A DNA stretch of 64,000 bases, from contig JAPLGN010000054.1 of NCBI GenBank assembly GCA_026390135.1, positions 52,539 to 116,538 of the forward strand, in the 5' to 3' direction. A program made the position numbers and the translations under genes. The notes under the pieces were generated by a model that saw only the letters and a program-made list of their open reading frames with translations, was not told the origin of the DNA and ran no database searches. How positions within the stretch are numbered: position 1 is the stretch's first letter; each line of letters starts with the position of its first letter. The stretch is from Campylobacterales bacterium. Its GTDB lineage: Bacteria; Campylobacterota; Campylobacteria; Campylobacterales; Sulfurimonadaceae. Positions 40,761 to 51,350 of this stretch are shown piece after piece.

Positions 40761-40818
40761 TCAGGTTTTAAGTGCTTTTACCCTATAATTGACAAATTTT
40801 TCTGACAAAAGGGTAAGC

Positions 40819-43922
<3,104 letters not shown>

Positions 43923-46142: not shown

Positions 46143-48065
46143 TCACGAGAGTGATGTCGGTTTACCGGTAAAGTACCCTTGTGAATAATCAACACCGATT
46201 TTTTTAAGAGTATCATAGATGGCCTCATCACTGACAAACTCAGCAATCGTTTTGGCACCAATTTTCTGCGCAAAATCGATAATCGTTTCAACAATAATAT
46301 GATGGCGCGGGTTACCGGTAATCTCCCGTATCAGTGACCCGTCTATTTTAATGTAATCGACACTCAACTTTAGAATGTTCTCAAAATTAGAATACCCCGT
46401 CCCAAAATCATCGATGGCTATTTTTGCACCCAGGGCTTTGACCTGCGTAATAAACTGTATCACTTCGTCATAACTCTCGATCCCCTCTGATTCCAGAATC
46501 TCAAATACGATTCTGGATGCGGTACCCGTTTTGCTAATCGTTTTAATAATCTCGTTTACTGTATGGGGATTGCGTATGTCACTGTCGGATAGATTGATAG
46601 AAAACTCCTCTTTACGATTAGCAAAAAGGGTACAGGCTTGATAGACCACTTCAAGTGTAATTTGGGGATAAAGTTTTGTTTTTTTTGCGATGGGTAAAAA
46701 TTCCATCGGCGGAACAATATTACCCACTTCGTCTATCATTCGGACCAGCGTTTCGTATTTGTCTACAGTACCTGTTTCCAGATTGACAATCGGCTGATAA
46801 TGACAGATAATACGGTGTTCAAAAAGTGCTCTGCGAACATGGGAAGCCATTGTCAGATTAGCACGATAGTGTTCTTCAACCCCTTCGTTCTGATTGTAAA
46901 AAGCGATTTGTTTATTATTTTCTTTGGCATGATGCAGTGCAATATCAGCGCGTGTCAACATTTTTTCACTTCCCAGAGCAACACCGACAGAGACTCTAAT
47001 ATTCAGGGTCTCTTCCTTTACCATAAAGGTCTTCTCATCCAATAGTTTGATGAGCATAAGTAAACGATGTTCTACCTCGGCTTGATCAAGGATATTATAG
47101 AAAATCATAGCAAATTCATCACTCCCTAAACGATAACATGTACTTGAGAGTTCATTGAGCCATGAACCGATCTGCACCAGCATTTCATCGCCAATGGAAA
47201 TTCCAAAAAAGTCATTAACTTCCTTAAAATCATCTATATTGACAATTGCCAGAGCTGTAATTCCTCCCTTGAGCAATTTTTCTTGCAGTTTGTAACGGTT
47301 AGGCAAACCGGTCAGCCGATCAATATAATACTGGTCTTCAAGCTCACGGGTTTTTTTATTAACCGTGATCTCAAGGGAGGTATTCATTGCTTCAATTTGT
47401 TCCAGATAAATATGGGTCGTTTCTTGCATCGCATTGAATGCCGTAACGATCTGTTCAATCTCCACACTGCCGTCCTCTTCAAACAGCATACGGTCACCGG
47501 GTTTGTAATAACGGACTTTTTGAGCAATTTTAGTCAAAGGAGAGAGAAGATAGCGAACCCACCATACCGCAACGAAAAAAAGCAGCGCTATACTCACTCC
47601 AATACCATACACAATCTTACGTATTGATTGACGCGTCTCATCATAGGCCAAATCGCTGTAACGCAAGGTAATTGATCCCATCAACTTCCCGGATATAGGT
47701 TCCTTAATCGGATGAGAAACACTAATTGCTGCATGTCGAGATGCCAATATTTCTTGACTGTTAGAGTAAAGGTACAATGCCTTTCCGTTATTGTCACGAA
47801 CCGTAAGTTCCGTTACATCAGGAACTGATACTGCAGGTGAAACTTTATCTGCAATCTGATCGTAAAACTTTAAATAGAGAGTAATTTGAAGCGGTTTTTC
47901 AATGGTGCGTAATAGTAAATCAGCTTTTTGTTTTTCCGAAACTAAAATCGTATTTTCGAAAACTATACTGACAACTGTCCCAAGTGTCATAAAAATCAGT
48001 AAGAAAATCAAAACCAATGATCCAACAATTTTATAGGAAAGACGGGTTTTAGAAAGATACATCAT
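46143..48065 (-). CDS. membrane GGDEF/EAL protein with periplasmic sensor, noncanonical GSDEF
   Basis: N-terminal membrane segment (about 12-36), a periplasmic region of about 110 residues, a second segment (about 150-170), a HAMP-like linker (to about 235), GGDEF (about 250-380) and EAL (about 400-640). The A-site of the GGDEF domain reads RLGSDEFAM, so it departs from GGDEF. The EAL motif reads ETL (KYETLVRM), and the metal ligands later seem kept: NLSDSD, FEILE, DDFGTGYSN, YIKIDGS, AEFVS. Phosphodiesterase activity is possible; cyclase activity is doubtful. The layout is YfiN-like plus an EAL. It is divergent from the acyltransferase-TonB-YfiR operon 146 bases away. Confidence 0.88.
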   Translation of the reverse strand: MMYLSKTRLSYKIVGSLVLIFLLIFMTLGTVVSIVFENTILVSEKQKADLLLRTIEKPLQITLYLKFYDQIADKVSPAVSVPDVTELTVRDNNGKALYLYSNSQEILASRHAAISVSHPIKEPISGKLMGSITLRYSDLAYDETRQSIRKIVYGIGVSIALLFFVAVWWVRYLLSPLTKIAQKVRYYKPGDRMLFEEDGSVEIEQIVTAFNAMQETTHIYLEQIEAMNTSLEITVNKKTRELEDQYYIDRLTGLPNRYKLQEKLLKGGITALAIVNIDDFKEVNDFFGISIGDEMLVQIGSWLNELSSTCYRLGSDEFAMIFYNILDQAEVEHRLLMLIKLLDEKTFMVKEETLNIRVSVGVALGSEKMLTRADIALHHAKENNKQIAFYNQNEGVEEHYRANLTMASHVRRALFEHRIICHYQPIVNLETGTVDKYETLVRMIDEVGNIVPPMEFLPIAKKTKLYPQITLEVVYQACTLFANRKEEFSINLSDSDIRNPHTVNEIIKTISKTGTASRIVFEILESEGIESYDEVIQFITQVKALGAKIAIDDFGTGYSNFENILKLSVDYIKIDGSLIREITGNPRHHIIVETIIDFAQKIGAKTIAEFVSDEAIYDTLKKIGVDYSQGYFTGKPTSLS

Positions 48066-48211
48066 GGATAAACCTTAATACTATACTATTTTATTATTAT
48101 TACATAAATATTATACAAAACTAAATTTTCTTCATAAGTTATGTAATTTTATCCTATAATATATTATTCAATGTTTTTCGGAACATATTAACAAAAAAAA
48201 GGATCAAATCA

Positions 48212-48769
48212 GTGAAATGCAGTATAGCAACAACGGAAATGGAACGAACAGCTATATTGCGGCAACGATATGATATTTTTGTGGAAGAGTTCAATTTTTT
48301 TACATCTAGAGAAGATGGTAAACCAATCGAATACGATGCGTATGATGATCATGCTCTTTTATTCGGCGTTTGGGAAAAAGACACTCTGATAGCTTCGTGT
48401 CGTCTCGTTCTACCTAATGACCTATTAGGTTTACCAACACTCAACAACATGAAGATTGATTCTGAAAAGATTCAAGATGATCAGCCGACAGCCGAAATTT
48501 CAAGAATTACGGTCGCCCCAAGTTACAGAGCTTTCAAAAAAACAATAAAGATCCTTCAAACGATGCAAGAAGCAATTGATCGAACTTCTACCGATCATGG
48601 AATAACTCAGTTGATTGGAGCGGTTGAACCCAGTTTTTTACGCCTTTTGAACTGTTCTTCTCTTCCATATCGTCCAATCGGTCCGATTCAATACCTCATC
48701 GGTGCAGAGCGCTATCCTGTCATTTTAAGGGCCCAAGAGTATACAATTTCTCTGAAAGAATCCCGATAA
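48212..48769 (+). CDS. LuxI/FeeM-like N-acyltransferase (autoinducer synthase fold)
   Basis: This 185-residue protein resembles acyl-homoserine-lactone synthases and N-acyl amino acid synthases (FeeM) in outline. It shows R-x2-RY-x-IFV at about 17-25, a Y-D-x-YDDHALLFGVWE strand region, LIASCRLVLP, and the conserved acidic/arginine patch in TAEISRITVAPSYR (about 94-107). These are the positions of the LuxI conserved R, F, W, D, D, R, E and R, though the spacing is only approximate. Start is GTG with AAAAGGATC upstream. It overlaps the TonB receptor gene (TAATG). The acyl donor and acceptor are unknown. Confidence 0.7.
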   Translation: MKCSIATTEMERTAILRQRYDIFVEEFNFFTSREDGKPIEYDAYDDHALLFGVWEKDTLIASCRLVLPNDLLGLPTLNNMKIDSEKIQDDQPTAEISRITVAPSYRAFKKTIKILQTMQEAIDRTSTDHGITQLIGAVEPSFLRLLNCSSLPYRPIGPIQYLIGAERYPVILRAQEYTISLKESR

Positions 48770-50820
48770 TGAACCGTTTTTCTCTCGCTTTATTATTAGC
48801 TCCTTTTTCTCTTTTGGCTACTGAGACGGGTACTGATCTTTTTAATAATCTCACTGATGATATGAGCAGTATTGCACAAATGGCAAAAGATCAACGGGCC
48901 AATATCGATTATCTTCCCTTCATAATGACGGTATTTGACGGTGAAGAACTTTCCAGGGCCGGTGCATCCTCACTTAAAGAAGCCCTCACCCTCGTCGCAG
49001 GAGTCAATATTTCCAGCGACAACCTCTCTTTATTCAATCCTGTCATTCGAGGTTCCAATCCTGTCTCCTATGGACAAAGCAAACTGATCGTTGACGGCGT
49101 CGAAGTTAATGATCTTTTTTTCGACGGTTATACTGCCTATCTTACAATGCCGATTGACATGATCAAACGGATTGAGATCGTTCGTGGACCTGGAAGTTAC
49201 AGTGACGGACATTCCGGCTATGCCGGATCCATCGTCGTAACGACCTATAAGGGGGAAGCTCCGGCTGATGGACTCAGCCGCTGGTTTGTTTCTGCAGGAA
49301 GCTATGGAACCCGTAAAATCGGGGCCTCGTATGCAATGAAGGATCATGATTTTGCTTTTTCAGCTGATATGTACACCGTTCATGATGACCTCTCTCTCTC
49401 CTACGGACAAGACGGTCTTAGTAATGGTATCCTAAGCTATGACTCTCTTCATATTAATAACCGACCTCTTTCCCGCTCTGGCGATGCCCCCTCATCCACC
49501 GATGCAACTATGGTTTCAGCATCGATATCCAAGGGAGATTTTTTTGCCGACGGTCGTCTCTCCACCTATCGACACGGATCAGAGGGTGGAATTAATTATG
49601 CCTTAGCCTCCGATGGGGATCACTATAACGTCGATCAATGGCAAGTTCGCGCTGGCGTGCACTATAATGCCGAAGATTTTTCCGGAACGTTTCAAGCGGC
49701 TATGGTTCAAGATAGCTTCACAAGCCATCAATTATTAGGCCCTATCGGGCTGGAATTGCCAAAACCCATAACATATTTACCAGCTGTCCCTTTTGATGAC
49801 GGTTTTTACGGCATACACGAAGCATTTATCCGAACCTATAAGGTTAATAATACCCTATCAGGAAATATATACGGCGGTGCCGCTACGTTCGGAATCAGTG
49901 GTTCATGGAGCAGCGTTAACTCAGAAAAAACAATCACTACCGACCGGGACACTGGAACGGGGATGACCGATTATTCGACTACTAGGCCTTTTATCAATCC
50001 CAATGGCTCTGTCAATAATCTAACGGGATACATGACCTATGAGCTAGCAATCTCTTCTTCTTTGGTCGGCTATGCCTCGCTGACCGTCGACCGGCGTAAC
50101 GGGTTAAGCCCACAAATCGATCCAAGAATTGCTACTGTCTACGTCATCGATCCCGCTAATCAGATCAAATTTTCAATCTCACGAGCCCACAGAAATCCGT
50201 CGTGGCAGGAAATGTTTACACAAAATAATGGAGCCCGTTCGGGGAATCCCGATCTACATCCCGAAATTGTCATGGCGTACGAAACCCAATACATCCATCA
50301 GTTTGAAACTGACCATACGCTATCCGTTAACCTATTCCGTCTCAATAACGACGATCAAATCTACCTACAAAACTATAAGTATGTTAACGGATCAAAAAGT
50401 ACGATTCAGGGTATCGAAGGGGAATGGCGAAAACGGTACGATGACACTTCCTTTTACGCAGCATATACTCATATTTGGGCGGAAGACGGCAATGGTGTGA
50501 CACTGGCAAATACACCCTCCGACACAGCGCGAGGATTTATCACTCAAACATTGAATGAAAACTGGTACGGGTCCTTAGCCGGACGATGGCAAAGTACAAC
50601 ACCAAGAGCATCCACTGATCCGCGTAACGATATGAAGGCTATCGGAATTATCGATACTTCTATCGGTTATAAACTTCCATATCTTAACAGCGAGGTTCAA
50701 TTTACTGTTAAAAATATCTTTGATGAAAAAGAACTCTATCCAAGCCCATCAAACACTTATGACGGGGACTATCCATCAACCGGACGTGCAATTATAGCCA
50801 CGGTAAGAGGGACATTTTGA
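48769..50820 (+). CDS. TonB-dependent outer-membrane receptor
   Basis: A signal peptide (RFSLALLLAPFSLLA) is followed by a plug domain (about 50-165): FIMTVFDGEELSRAGASSLK, NPVIRGSNPVSYGQSKLIVDG and IKRIEIVRGPGSYSDGHSGY. The 22-strand barrel continues to a C-terminal aromatic residue (ATVRGTF). NPSWQEMFTQNNGARSGNPD is the usual late barrel motif. The TonB box is not obvious. It lacks siderophore-uptake neighbours; instead a YfiR-like gene follows and a putative signal synthase gene precedes it, so a signalling or signal-uptake role is a fair idea. It overlaps both neighbours. Confidence 0.92.
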   Translation: MNRFSLALLLAPFSLLATETGTDLFNNLTDDMSSIAQMAKDQRANIDYLPFIMTVFDGEELSRAGASSLKEALTLVAGVNISSDNLSLFNPVIRGSNPVSYGQSKLIVDGVEVNDLFFDGYTAYLTMPIDMIKRIEIVRGPGSYSDGHSGYAGSIVVTTYKGEAPADGLSRWFVSAGSYGTRKIGASYAMKDHDFAFSADMYTVHDDLSLSYGQDGLSNGILSYDSLHINNRPLSRSGDAPSSTDATMVSASISKGDFFADGRLSTYRHGSEGGINYALASDGDHYNVDQWQVRAGVHYNAEDFSGTFQAAMVQDSFTSHQLLGPIGLELPKPITYLPAVPFDDGFYGIHEAFIRTYKVNNTLSGNIYGGAATFGISGSWSSVNSEKTITTDRDTGTGMTDYSTTRPFINPNGSVNNLTGYMTYELAISSSLVGYASLTVDRRNGLSPQIDPRIATVYVIDPANQIKFSISRAHRNPSWQEMFTQNNGARSGNPDLHPEIVMAYETQYIHQFETDHTLSVNLFRLNNDDQIYLQNYKYVNGSKSTIQGIEGEWRKRYDDTSFYAAYTHIWAEDGNGVTLANTPSDTARGFITQTLNENWYGSLAGRWQSTTPRASTDPRNDMKAIGIIDTSIGYKLPYLNSEVQFTVKNIFDEKELYPSPSNTYDGDYPSTGRAIIATVRGTF

Positions 50821-51350
50821 AACGAATTATTATATTCTTTGTGCTAAGCGTAACTGGATGGTGTGCATCGTATGATCCATTTTTATTGGATACACAACTC
50901 ACATTACTGCCTAAAATTGCAATGCTCAATAAAAATATTGCCCTTCCTCACAGTAAATCTCCGATTAAAATCTTGATCGCATATGAATCCGATGATGAGG
51001 ATACCGCCCTTATATGCAGCAAAATTTTGATAAACAAATTCAATAGAACGCTAAACGGTCATCCGATTGTGGTTACAATTCTGCCCTTCGATAAACTTGA
51101 CAGCTCGACTTCATATCACCTCATTTATGCGCTCAAGGCAAGTTTATCACAGCTCAAAAAAGTTCACAATACTGTTGGTTCATCCAGTACGATTACAGCA
51201 CTTTATGATGCAGACAAACTCACTGATGCAGGTATTTTACTCTCGATCCGGATGGAACGTGTTCCCGTTATTTTAATCAATGCCAAAGCACTGAGGGAAA
51301 ACAAAATCTCATTTCCCGATAGTCTACTCGAAATTGCAAGAATTATCTAA
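50817..51350 (+). CDS. YfiR-like periplasmic protein (DUF4154)
   Basis: A signal peptide (MKRIIIFFVLSVTGWCAS) is followed by about 160 residues. The C-terminal part fits the YfiR/DUF4154 pattern: ITALYDADKLTDAGILLSIR, then VPVILINAKALRENKI and FPDSLLEIARII, which matches the usual iN..al....i..S..LL.lA ending. YfiR proteins hold back a membrane cyclase (YfiN/TpbB) in the periplasm. TonB receptor plus YfiR-like gene is a known pairing. The start is a TTG that overlaps the receptor stop (TTGA). The divergent GGDEF/EAL protein is the obvious candidate target. The family match is weak at the N-terminus. Confidence 0.65.
   Translation: MKRIIIFFVLSVTGWCASYDPFLLDTQLTLLPKIAMLNKNIALPHSKSPIKILIAYESDDEDTALICSKILINKFNRTLNGHPIVVTILPFDKLDSSTSYHLIYALKASLSQLKKVHNTVGSSSTITALYDADKLTDAGILLSIRMERVPVILINAKALRENKISFPDSLLEIARII

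Follow-up and report, generated by a model that had tools for sequence, protein, structure and literature searches.

Judged by their sequences, four linked genes carried by many sulfur-oxidising Campylobacterota have the look of a complete circuit for chemical signalling that has not been described before. In the reading that we favour, to which we assign a probability of about 55%, a small acyltransferase would make an N-acyl compound, a TonB-dependent receptor would detect it, and a YfiR-like protein would relay the signal to a GGDEF/EAL enzyme. The genes are arranged as follows in the window, by which we mean the whole 64,000-nucleotide stretch of DNA analysed here:

46143-48065, minus strand: membrane GGDEF/EAL protein, 640 aa, predicted to consist of a TM, a PAS/sCache-like periplasmic domain, a second TM, HAMP, GGDEF and EAL (Pfam, motifs and model)
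48066-48211, no strand: intergenic region of 146 bases between the divergent genes (sequence)
48212-48769, plus strand: synthase, a LuxI/FeeM-superfamily acyltransferase and putative N-acyl signal synthase, 185 aa, with a GTG start after AAGGATCAAATCA
48769-50820, plus strand: TonB-dependent outer-membrane receptor with plug and barrel, 683 aa (Pfam)
50817-51350, plus strand: YfiR-like periplasmic protein, 177 aa, with a TTG start and a signal peptide-like N terminus (DUF4154 and fold)

The coordinates, single-codon overlaps and 146-base gap given in a preliminary description of this DNA were all verified on the sequence, the synthase and receptor genes meeting at TAATG (48767-48771) and the receptor and YfiR genes at TTGA (50817-50820). 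A TATAAT-like box, which may be the promoter of the synthase gene, lies about 55 bases 5' of the synthase start within the intergenic region. The TCCTATAATATA block of this region is found again in some members of the window genus, and alignment of the divergent-region promoters of that genus revealed no clear operator. Elsewhere in the window, carB (40789-43922) is apparently split by a frameshift near 42430-42660 into two overlapping open reading frames, possibly through an assembly error.

That the four genes form one functional module is well supported, as they are kept together, mostly as an operon, across many Campylobacterota families. Among 299 genomes of the order, relatives of the synthase were found in 47 by single-sequence search and in 65 by profile. 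The receptor gene adjoins 37 of the 46 synthase genes surveyed, usually followed in the same direction by the YfiR and GGDEF/EAL genes. The same arrangement was seen in Sulfurimonas, Hydrogenimonas, Nitratiruptor and Arcobacter in a scan of named genomes with a 10-row alignment profile, which reaches close relatives, on a set partly overlapping the 299-genome neighbourhoods. The preliminary description had treated the genes as a single set, and the neighbourhood survey found them conserved together in other genomes, with 45 complete, non-redundant quartets in related Campylobacterota; this figure, like the other locus counts, is a lower bound, the simple ORF caller having missed the synthase under a longer spurious frame (in L049, L057 and L094). 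Most of these quartets (36/45) are a single co-directional operon in the order synthase, receptor, YfiR, GGDEF/EAL. The remaining nine, all from the window genus, have the GGDEF/EAL gene divergent, so the divergent orientation reported earlier is a peculiarity of that genus, while elsewhere this gene is the fourth of the same operon.

Counting strong matches by hand, synthase and YfiR occur together in 39 of the 299 genomes, synthase only in 6, YfiR only in 8 and neither in 246 (Fisher p ~1.6e-34, shared ancestry ignored). Between the four proteins, pairwise distances are correlated, with r of 0.82-0.94, or 0.77-0.92 when the window genus is left out, in part through shared ancestry. The window-genus proteins are strongly diverged, being only 26-35% identical to those of the remaining module carriers. 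The genes 5' of the module, recognised by eye, vary by lineage (rsmH, an RND pump, cytochrome c, trpB, leucine aminopeptidase), and the linkage is therefore not merely frozen gene order. Chance clustering is ruled out by the recurrence of 45 non-redundant quartets in varied surroundings. The upstream genes were also considered as members of the pathway and set aside, being housekeeping or unrelated in most lineages, with the exception of a methyltransferase in Arcobacter.

Judged by its profile matches, the 185-aa protein is an acyltransferase of the LuxI/FeeM superfamily, as previously proposed. In Pfam it matches Acetyltransf_5 above cut-off (4.7e-11), FeeM just under cut-off (2.6e-4) and Autoind_synth at 3.3e-4 (20.7 bits against a gathering cut-off of 24); in NCBIfam it matches the exosort_acyl model TIGR03694 at 9e-18 (64.6 bits against a curated cut-off of 111.95). 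The family is thus not confined to general GNAT or transferase models: 34 relatives matched Acetyltransf_5 in all cases, Autoind_synth in 29 and FeeM in 21, some above curated cut-offs, with one relative (L051) exceeding the cut-offs of both Autoind_synth (32.2 bits) and FeeM. Among NCBIfam models, TIGR03694 was the best for every one of the 34 relatives, the top score again being that of L051 (107.6 bits against 111.95). An exosortase/PEP-CTERM link of the synthase was considered and dropped, since no match to exosortase (PF09721) was found in the window's genome, which is ~82% complete.

The charged signature R-E-D-D-R-E-R, including E-x-S-R, is present in the N-terminal half of the family. 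Residues R19, E40, D42, D45, R64, E95, S97 and R98 are invariant in all 11 window-genus copies, and R21, E42, D44, D47, R67, E99, S101 and R102 (L051 numbering) are invariant or nearly so in an alignment of 34 module-linked copies; we take these to be the charged set of LuxI and FeeM, a correspondence drawn in part from an alignment with LasI. A family profile searched against the PDB found LasI at 1.3e-5, together with other AHL synthases. A tblastn search with L051 recovered, at 6e-8, genes on Agrobacterium-type plasmids that are annotated as acyl-homoserine-lactone synthases, the plasmid relatives counting annotated AHL synthases and an exosortase-type acyltransferase among them; around a relative on an Alteromonas plasmid, no annotated receptor or YfiR was seen. 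Within the window genus the synthase has a dN/dS of 0.16-0.25 and is under purifying selection. Family membership and selection are therefore supported jointly by the profile matches, the LasI match, the invariant signature and a dN/dS of ~0.2. The product may belong to the AHLs, to the N-acyl amino acids or to another class of compound. Of the 'LuxI-like quorum synthase' first suggested, the superfamily assignment stands and the quorum role is not established, as the protein is closest both to the exosortase-associated (TIGR03694)/N-acyl amino acid synthase branch and to AHL synthases.

The second gene encodes a TonB-dependent receptor, in agreement with its initial assignment, with Plug (5.8e-16) and barrel (9.5e-24) both above the Pfam cut-offs and with plug and barrel residues conserved across the 34 receptor homologues from the survey. 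The NCBIfam models for the TOL_0244 receptor and its TOL_0243 YfiR-like partner match the receptor and YfiR weakly, far under their cut-offs; against the Arcobacter receptor the TOL_0244 model reaches 1e-29, also far under cut-off. TOL_0244 is up sevenfold on a C28 alkane and is related to Alcanivorax OmpS, which is needed for alkane detection; these receptor families are implicated in the sensing of long hydrophobic molecules (PMC6304351).

The third protein is, on the strength of a structural model, YfiR-like in fold. Its DUF4154/YfiR match (2.7e-4, 21.5 bits) falls slightly under the Pfam cut-off of 24.9, and DUF4154 is matched in 4 of 29 relatives at E up to 1. A search of the YfiR-like alignment against PDB sequences found nothing, and its structure was therefore predicted. 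The AlphaFold2 model (pLDDT 90.6) retrieved YfiR or YfiB-YfiR entries from P. aeruginosa as its top 13 Foldseek matches in the PDB, with TM-scores of 0.61-0.78 and E of 5.8e-7 to 1.8e-5, which bears out the original identification.

HAMP, GGDEF and EAL domains were found by Pfam in the 640-aa protein, and a model of its N terminus (pLDDT 81) shows a TM, a PAS/sCache-like domain, a TM and HAMP, with fold matches to periplasmic domains of sensor kinases and of LapD type. All 28 homologues surveyed have the complete EAL catalytic set; their GGDEF motif is in most cases SGDEF, that of the window protein GSDEF, and it is therefore possible that the enzyme makes c-di-GMP or breaks it. CHASE8 was looked for in this protein and gave no match, and we consequently describe it as YfiN-like in layout, without claiming that it is an orthologue of YfiN. 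The earlier label 'YfiN-like' is thus apt for the HAMP and PAS-like fold and cannot be extended to orthology, given the complete EAL set and the missing CHASE8 match. That c-di-GMP signalling is present in the window's genome is shown by 40 matches to GGDEF together with a PilZ protein.

We can now propose how such a circuit might operate. The acyltransferase would join an acyl group from acyl-ACP or acyl-CoA to an amine. The resulting molecule, AHL-like or an N-acyl amino acid, would leave the cell and bind the receptor at the outer membrane. The occupied receptor might then alter its plug on the periplasmic side, causing YfiR to be captured or released, and free YfiR would control the GGDEF/EAL protein through its periplasmic domain, and hence the net making or breaking of c-di-GMP. 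The choice between an attached and a free-swimming state would in this way depend on cell density or on neighbours, without a LuxR-type receptor. TonB receptors usually import nutrients or metals, which counts against a signalling role. The LuxR autoinducer-binding domain (Autoind_bind) was found in none of 14 module genomes, making the linked receptor the natural candidate reader of the signal. In P. aeruginosa the YfiN cyclase is repressed by YfiR, which YfiB in turn sequesters at the outer membrane (PMC2837407, PMC4655355); by analogy, the receptor may take the part of YfiB, gated by an acyl ligand. We infer both the identity of the signal and the direction of signalling, as well as the sensing of an acyl compound at the outer membrane and its relay by YfiR.

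Losses and additions around the module are informative. The synthase is present in 11 of 41 window-genus genomes and lies at the module in all 11, even where gene order is rearranged (L153). In G305 it has moved past the GGDEF/EAL gene to the far side, in G311 it is cleanly absent, and in G319 a 22-residue remnant survives and a sensor histidine kinase occupies its place; G300 has gained a kinase of the same type. Such kinase genes (L143:5443-6903 and L145:6371-7831) adjoin the receptor where the synthase is lost, L145 keeping the 22-residue remnant, and YfiR may be paired with differing output proteins. In G239 and G126 the receptor, YfiR and GGDEF/EAL genes are retained and the synthase is broken or residual; the decayed genes lie 5' of the intact set (L110:3874-4083 and L111, G126:C1:372163-372300), and their carriers are possibly 'listener' strains. 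Receptor-YfiR-GGDEF sets without a synthase recur in the same order, more distant ones being seen at L120, L122, L123 and L124. Together with the synthase-only losses in G239, G126, G319 and G311, these sets indicate that the receptor side can work alone; since they exist, the novelty of the module lies in its built-in synthase. A few synthase homologues of one family (f4) stand outside any module, by recD2 or near a different GGDEF gene; recD2 is just 5' of two such genes (L040:8589-9179 and L052:9009-9725), with dapD 3' in L040.

In Arcobacter-type genomes an LCM-type carboxyl methyltransferase gene abuts the synthase gene (L106:5106-6630, L107:5106-6570, L109:5105-6630). The full operon, in L106, runs methyltransferase (PF04072, 3e-29), synthase, receptor, YfiR, GGDEF/EAL. 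In G226 the synthase and methyltransferase lie on one contig and the receptor, YfiR and GGDEF/EAL genes on another, both being retained. A methyltransferase acting on carboxyl groups would suit a product that bears a free carboxylate, for instance an N-acyl amino acid, which is suggestive only; it is possible that it performs a tailoring step yielding an N-acyl amino acid methyl ester.

Other explanations have to be weighed against this reading. The receptor, YfiR and GGDEF/EAL proteins might sense an external hydrophobic nutrient or signal (a fatty acid, an alkane or an acyl compound of another species), with a secreted acyl-amino acid acting as a surfactant or carrier that aids ligand capture and conveys no signal. 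The weak matches of the TOL_0244 and TOL_0243 models to receptor and YfiR, and the alkane induction and OmpS relationship of TOL_0244 (PMC6304351), lend this some weight. N-acyl amino acids are moreover surfactants, and some genomes dispense with the synthase. The module hosts are mostly chemolithoautotrophs, however, in which a need for alkanes is not obvious, and synthase and receptor are tightly co-conserved and diverge together, so we regard this explanation as unlikely. Import by the receptor of an acylated siderophore-like or metallophore molecule built by the acyltransferase, with YfiR and the GGDEF/EAL protein reporting metal status, appears improbable: TonB receptors of this shape do match the siderophore receptor model TIGR01783, but at scores far under its cut-off, and no further siderophore-biosynthesis gene was recognised beside the module in the loci examined.

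Equally improbable, in our judgement, is the synthesis of a membrane lipid (an OlsB-like ornithine lipid or other amino-lipid), the receptor and YfiR being linked to it as monitors of outer-membrane composition. Weak OlsB-model matches do occur in 13-16 of the 34 relatives, but far better scores are reached by TIGR03694 and by the LuxI/FeeM models. OlsB also works together with OlsA, and no partner of that kind was seen beside the module. As Autoind_synth is matched above cut-off in some relatives, a standard AHL synthase might also be supposed, served by an intracellular LuxR encoded elsewhere and lying only by coincidence beside a receptor operon unrelated to it; the conservation of 45 quartets in differing surroundings and the absence of LuxR from the 14 module genomes mostly refute this, leaving it very improbable.

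Returning to the self-made N-acyl signal, we propose more tentatively, at rather less than even odds, that the module represents quorum sensing of a new layout, combining such a signal with a TonB-dependent surface receptor, a YfiR relay and a c-di-GMP enzyme, with neither LuxR nor a two-component receptor. Free-living Campylobacterota would carry it widely, some strains being synthase-less 'listeners', and in Arcobacter the signal would be tailored by the methyltransferase. No LuxI-type system described for Campylobacterota was found in the open-access literature searched. These bacteria are dominant in many sulfidic habitats and grow as biofilms. If the proposal is true, acyl-signal quorum sensing with an extracytoplasmic receptor directly controlling c-di-GMP would join two large fields, and orphan outer-membrane receptor-YfiR pairs would gain a class of ligand to test. 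The four-gene unit is compact enough for testing in a laboratory strain.

Finally, the module shares features with several known systems. The synthase resembles LuxI-type AHL synthases (Autoind_synth; LasI, TraI) in superfamily, size and charged signature, and plasmid genes of TraI type are among the tblastn matches of its relative; it differs in that the window protein itself scores under the Pfam cut-off, phenylalanine occurs at the LasI-type GW motif, and the module lacks the LuxR partner of LuxI/LuxR quorum sensing in the 14 module genomes. The FeeM and TIGR03694 group (N-acyl amino acid synthases and the PEP-CTERM-exosortase acyltransferase) supplies the best model for all 34 relatives, whereas the synthase is tied to receptor, YfiR and GGDEF/EAL genes instead of sorting genes. 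With YfiBNR (TpbB) of P. aeruginosa the module has in common the YfiR fold, an outer-membrane partner, and a membrane c-di-GMP protein that bears HAMP and a PAS-like domain in the periplasm; it differs in having a TonB receptor where YfiBNR has the lipoprotein YfiB, a target protein with intact EAL and without a CHASE8 match, and a synthase gene in its operon. TOL_0244/TOL_0243 of Thalassolituus and OmpS of Alcanivorax offer receptor and YfiR-like families to which the module's proteins are weakly matched, with hydrophobic-ligand sensing proposed (PMC6304351); the TOL_0244/TOL_0243 model scores are far under cut-offs, and no synthase is reported to accompany that pair (PMC6304351), whereas in the Campylobacterota module the synthase is built in.
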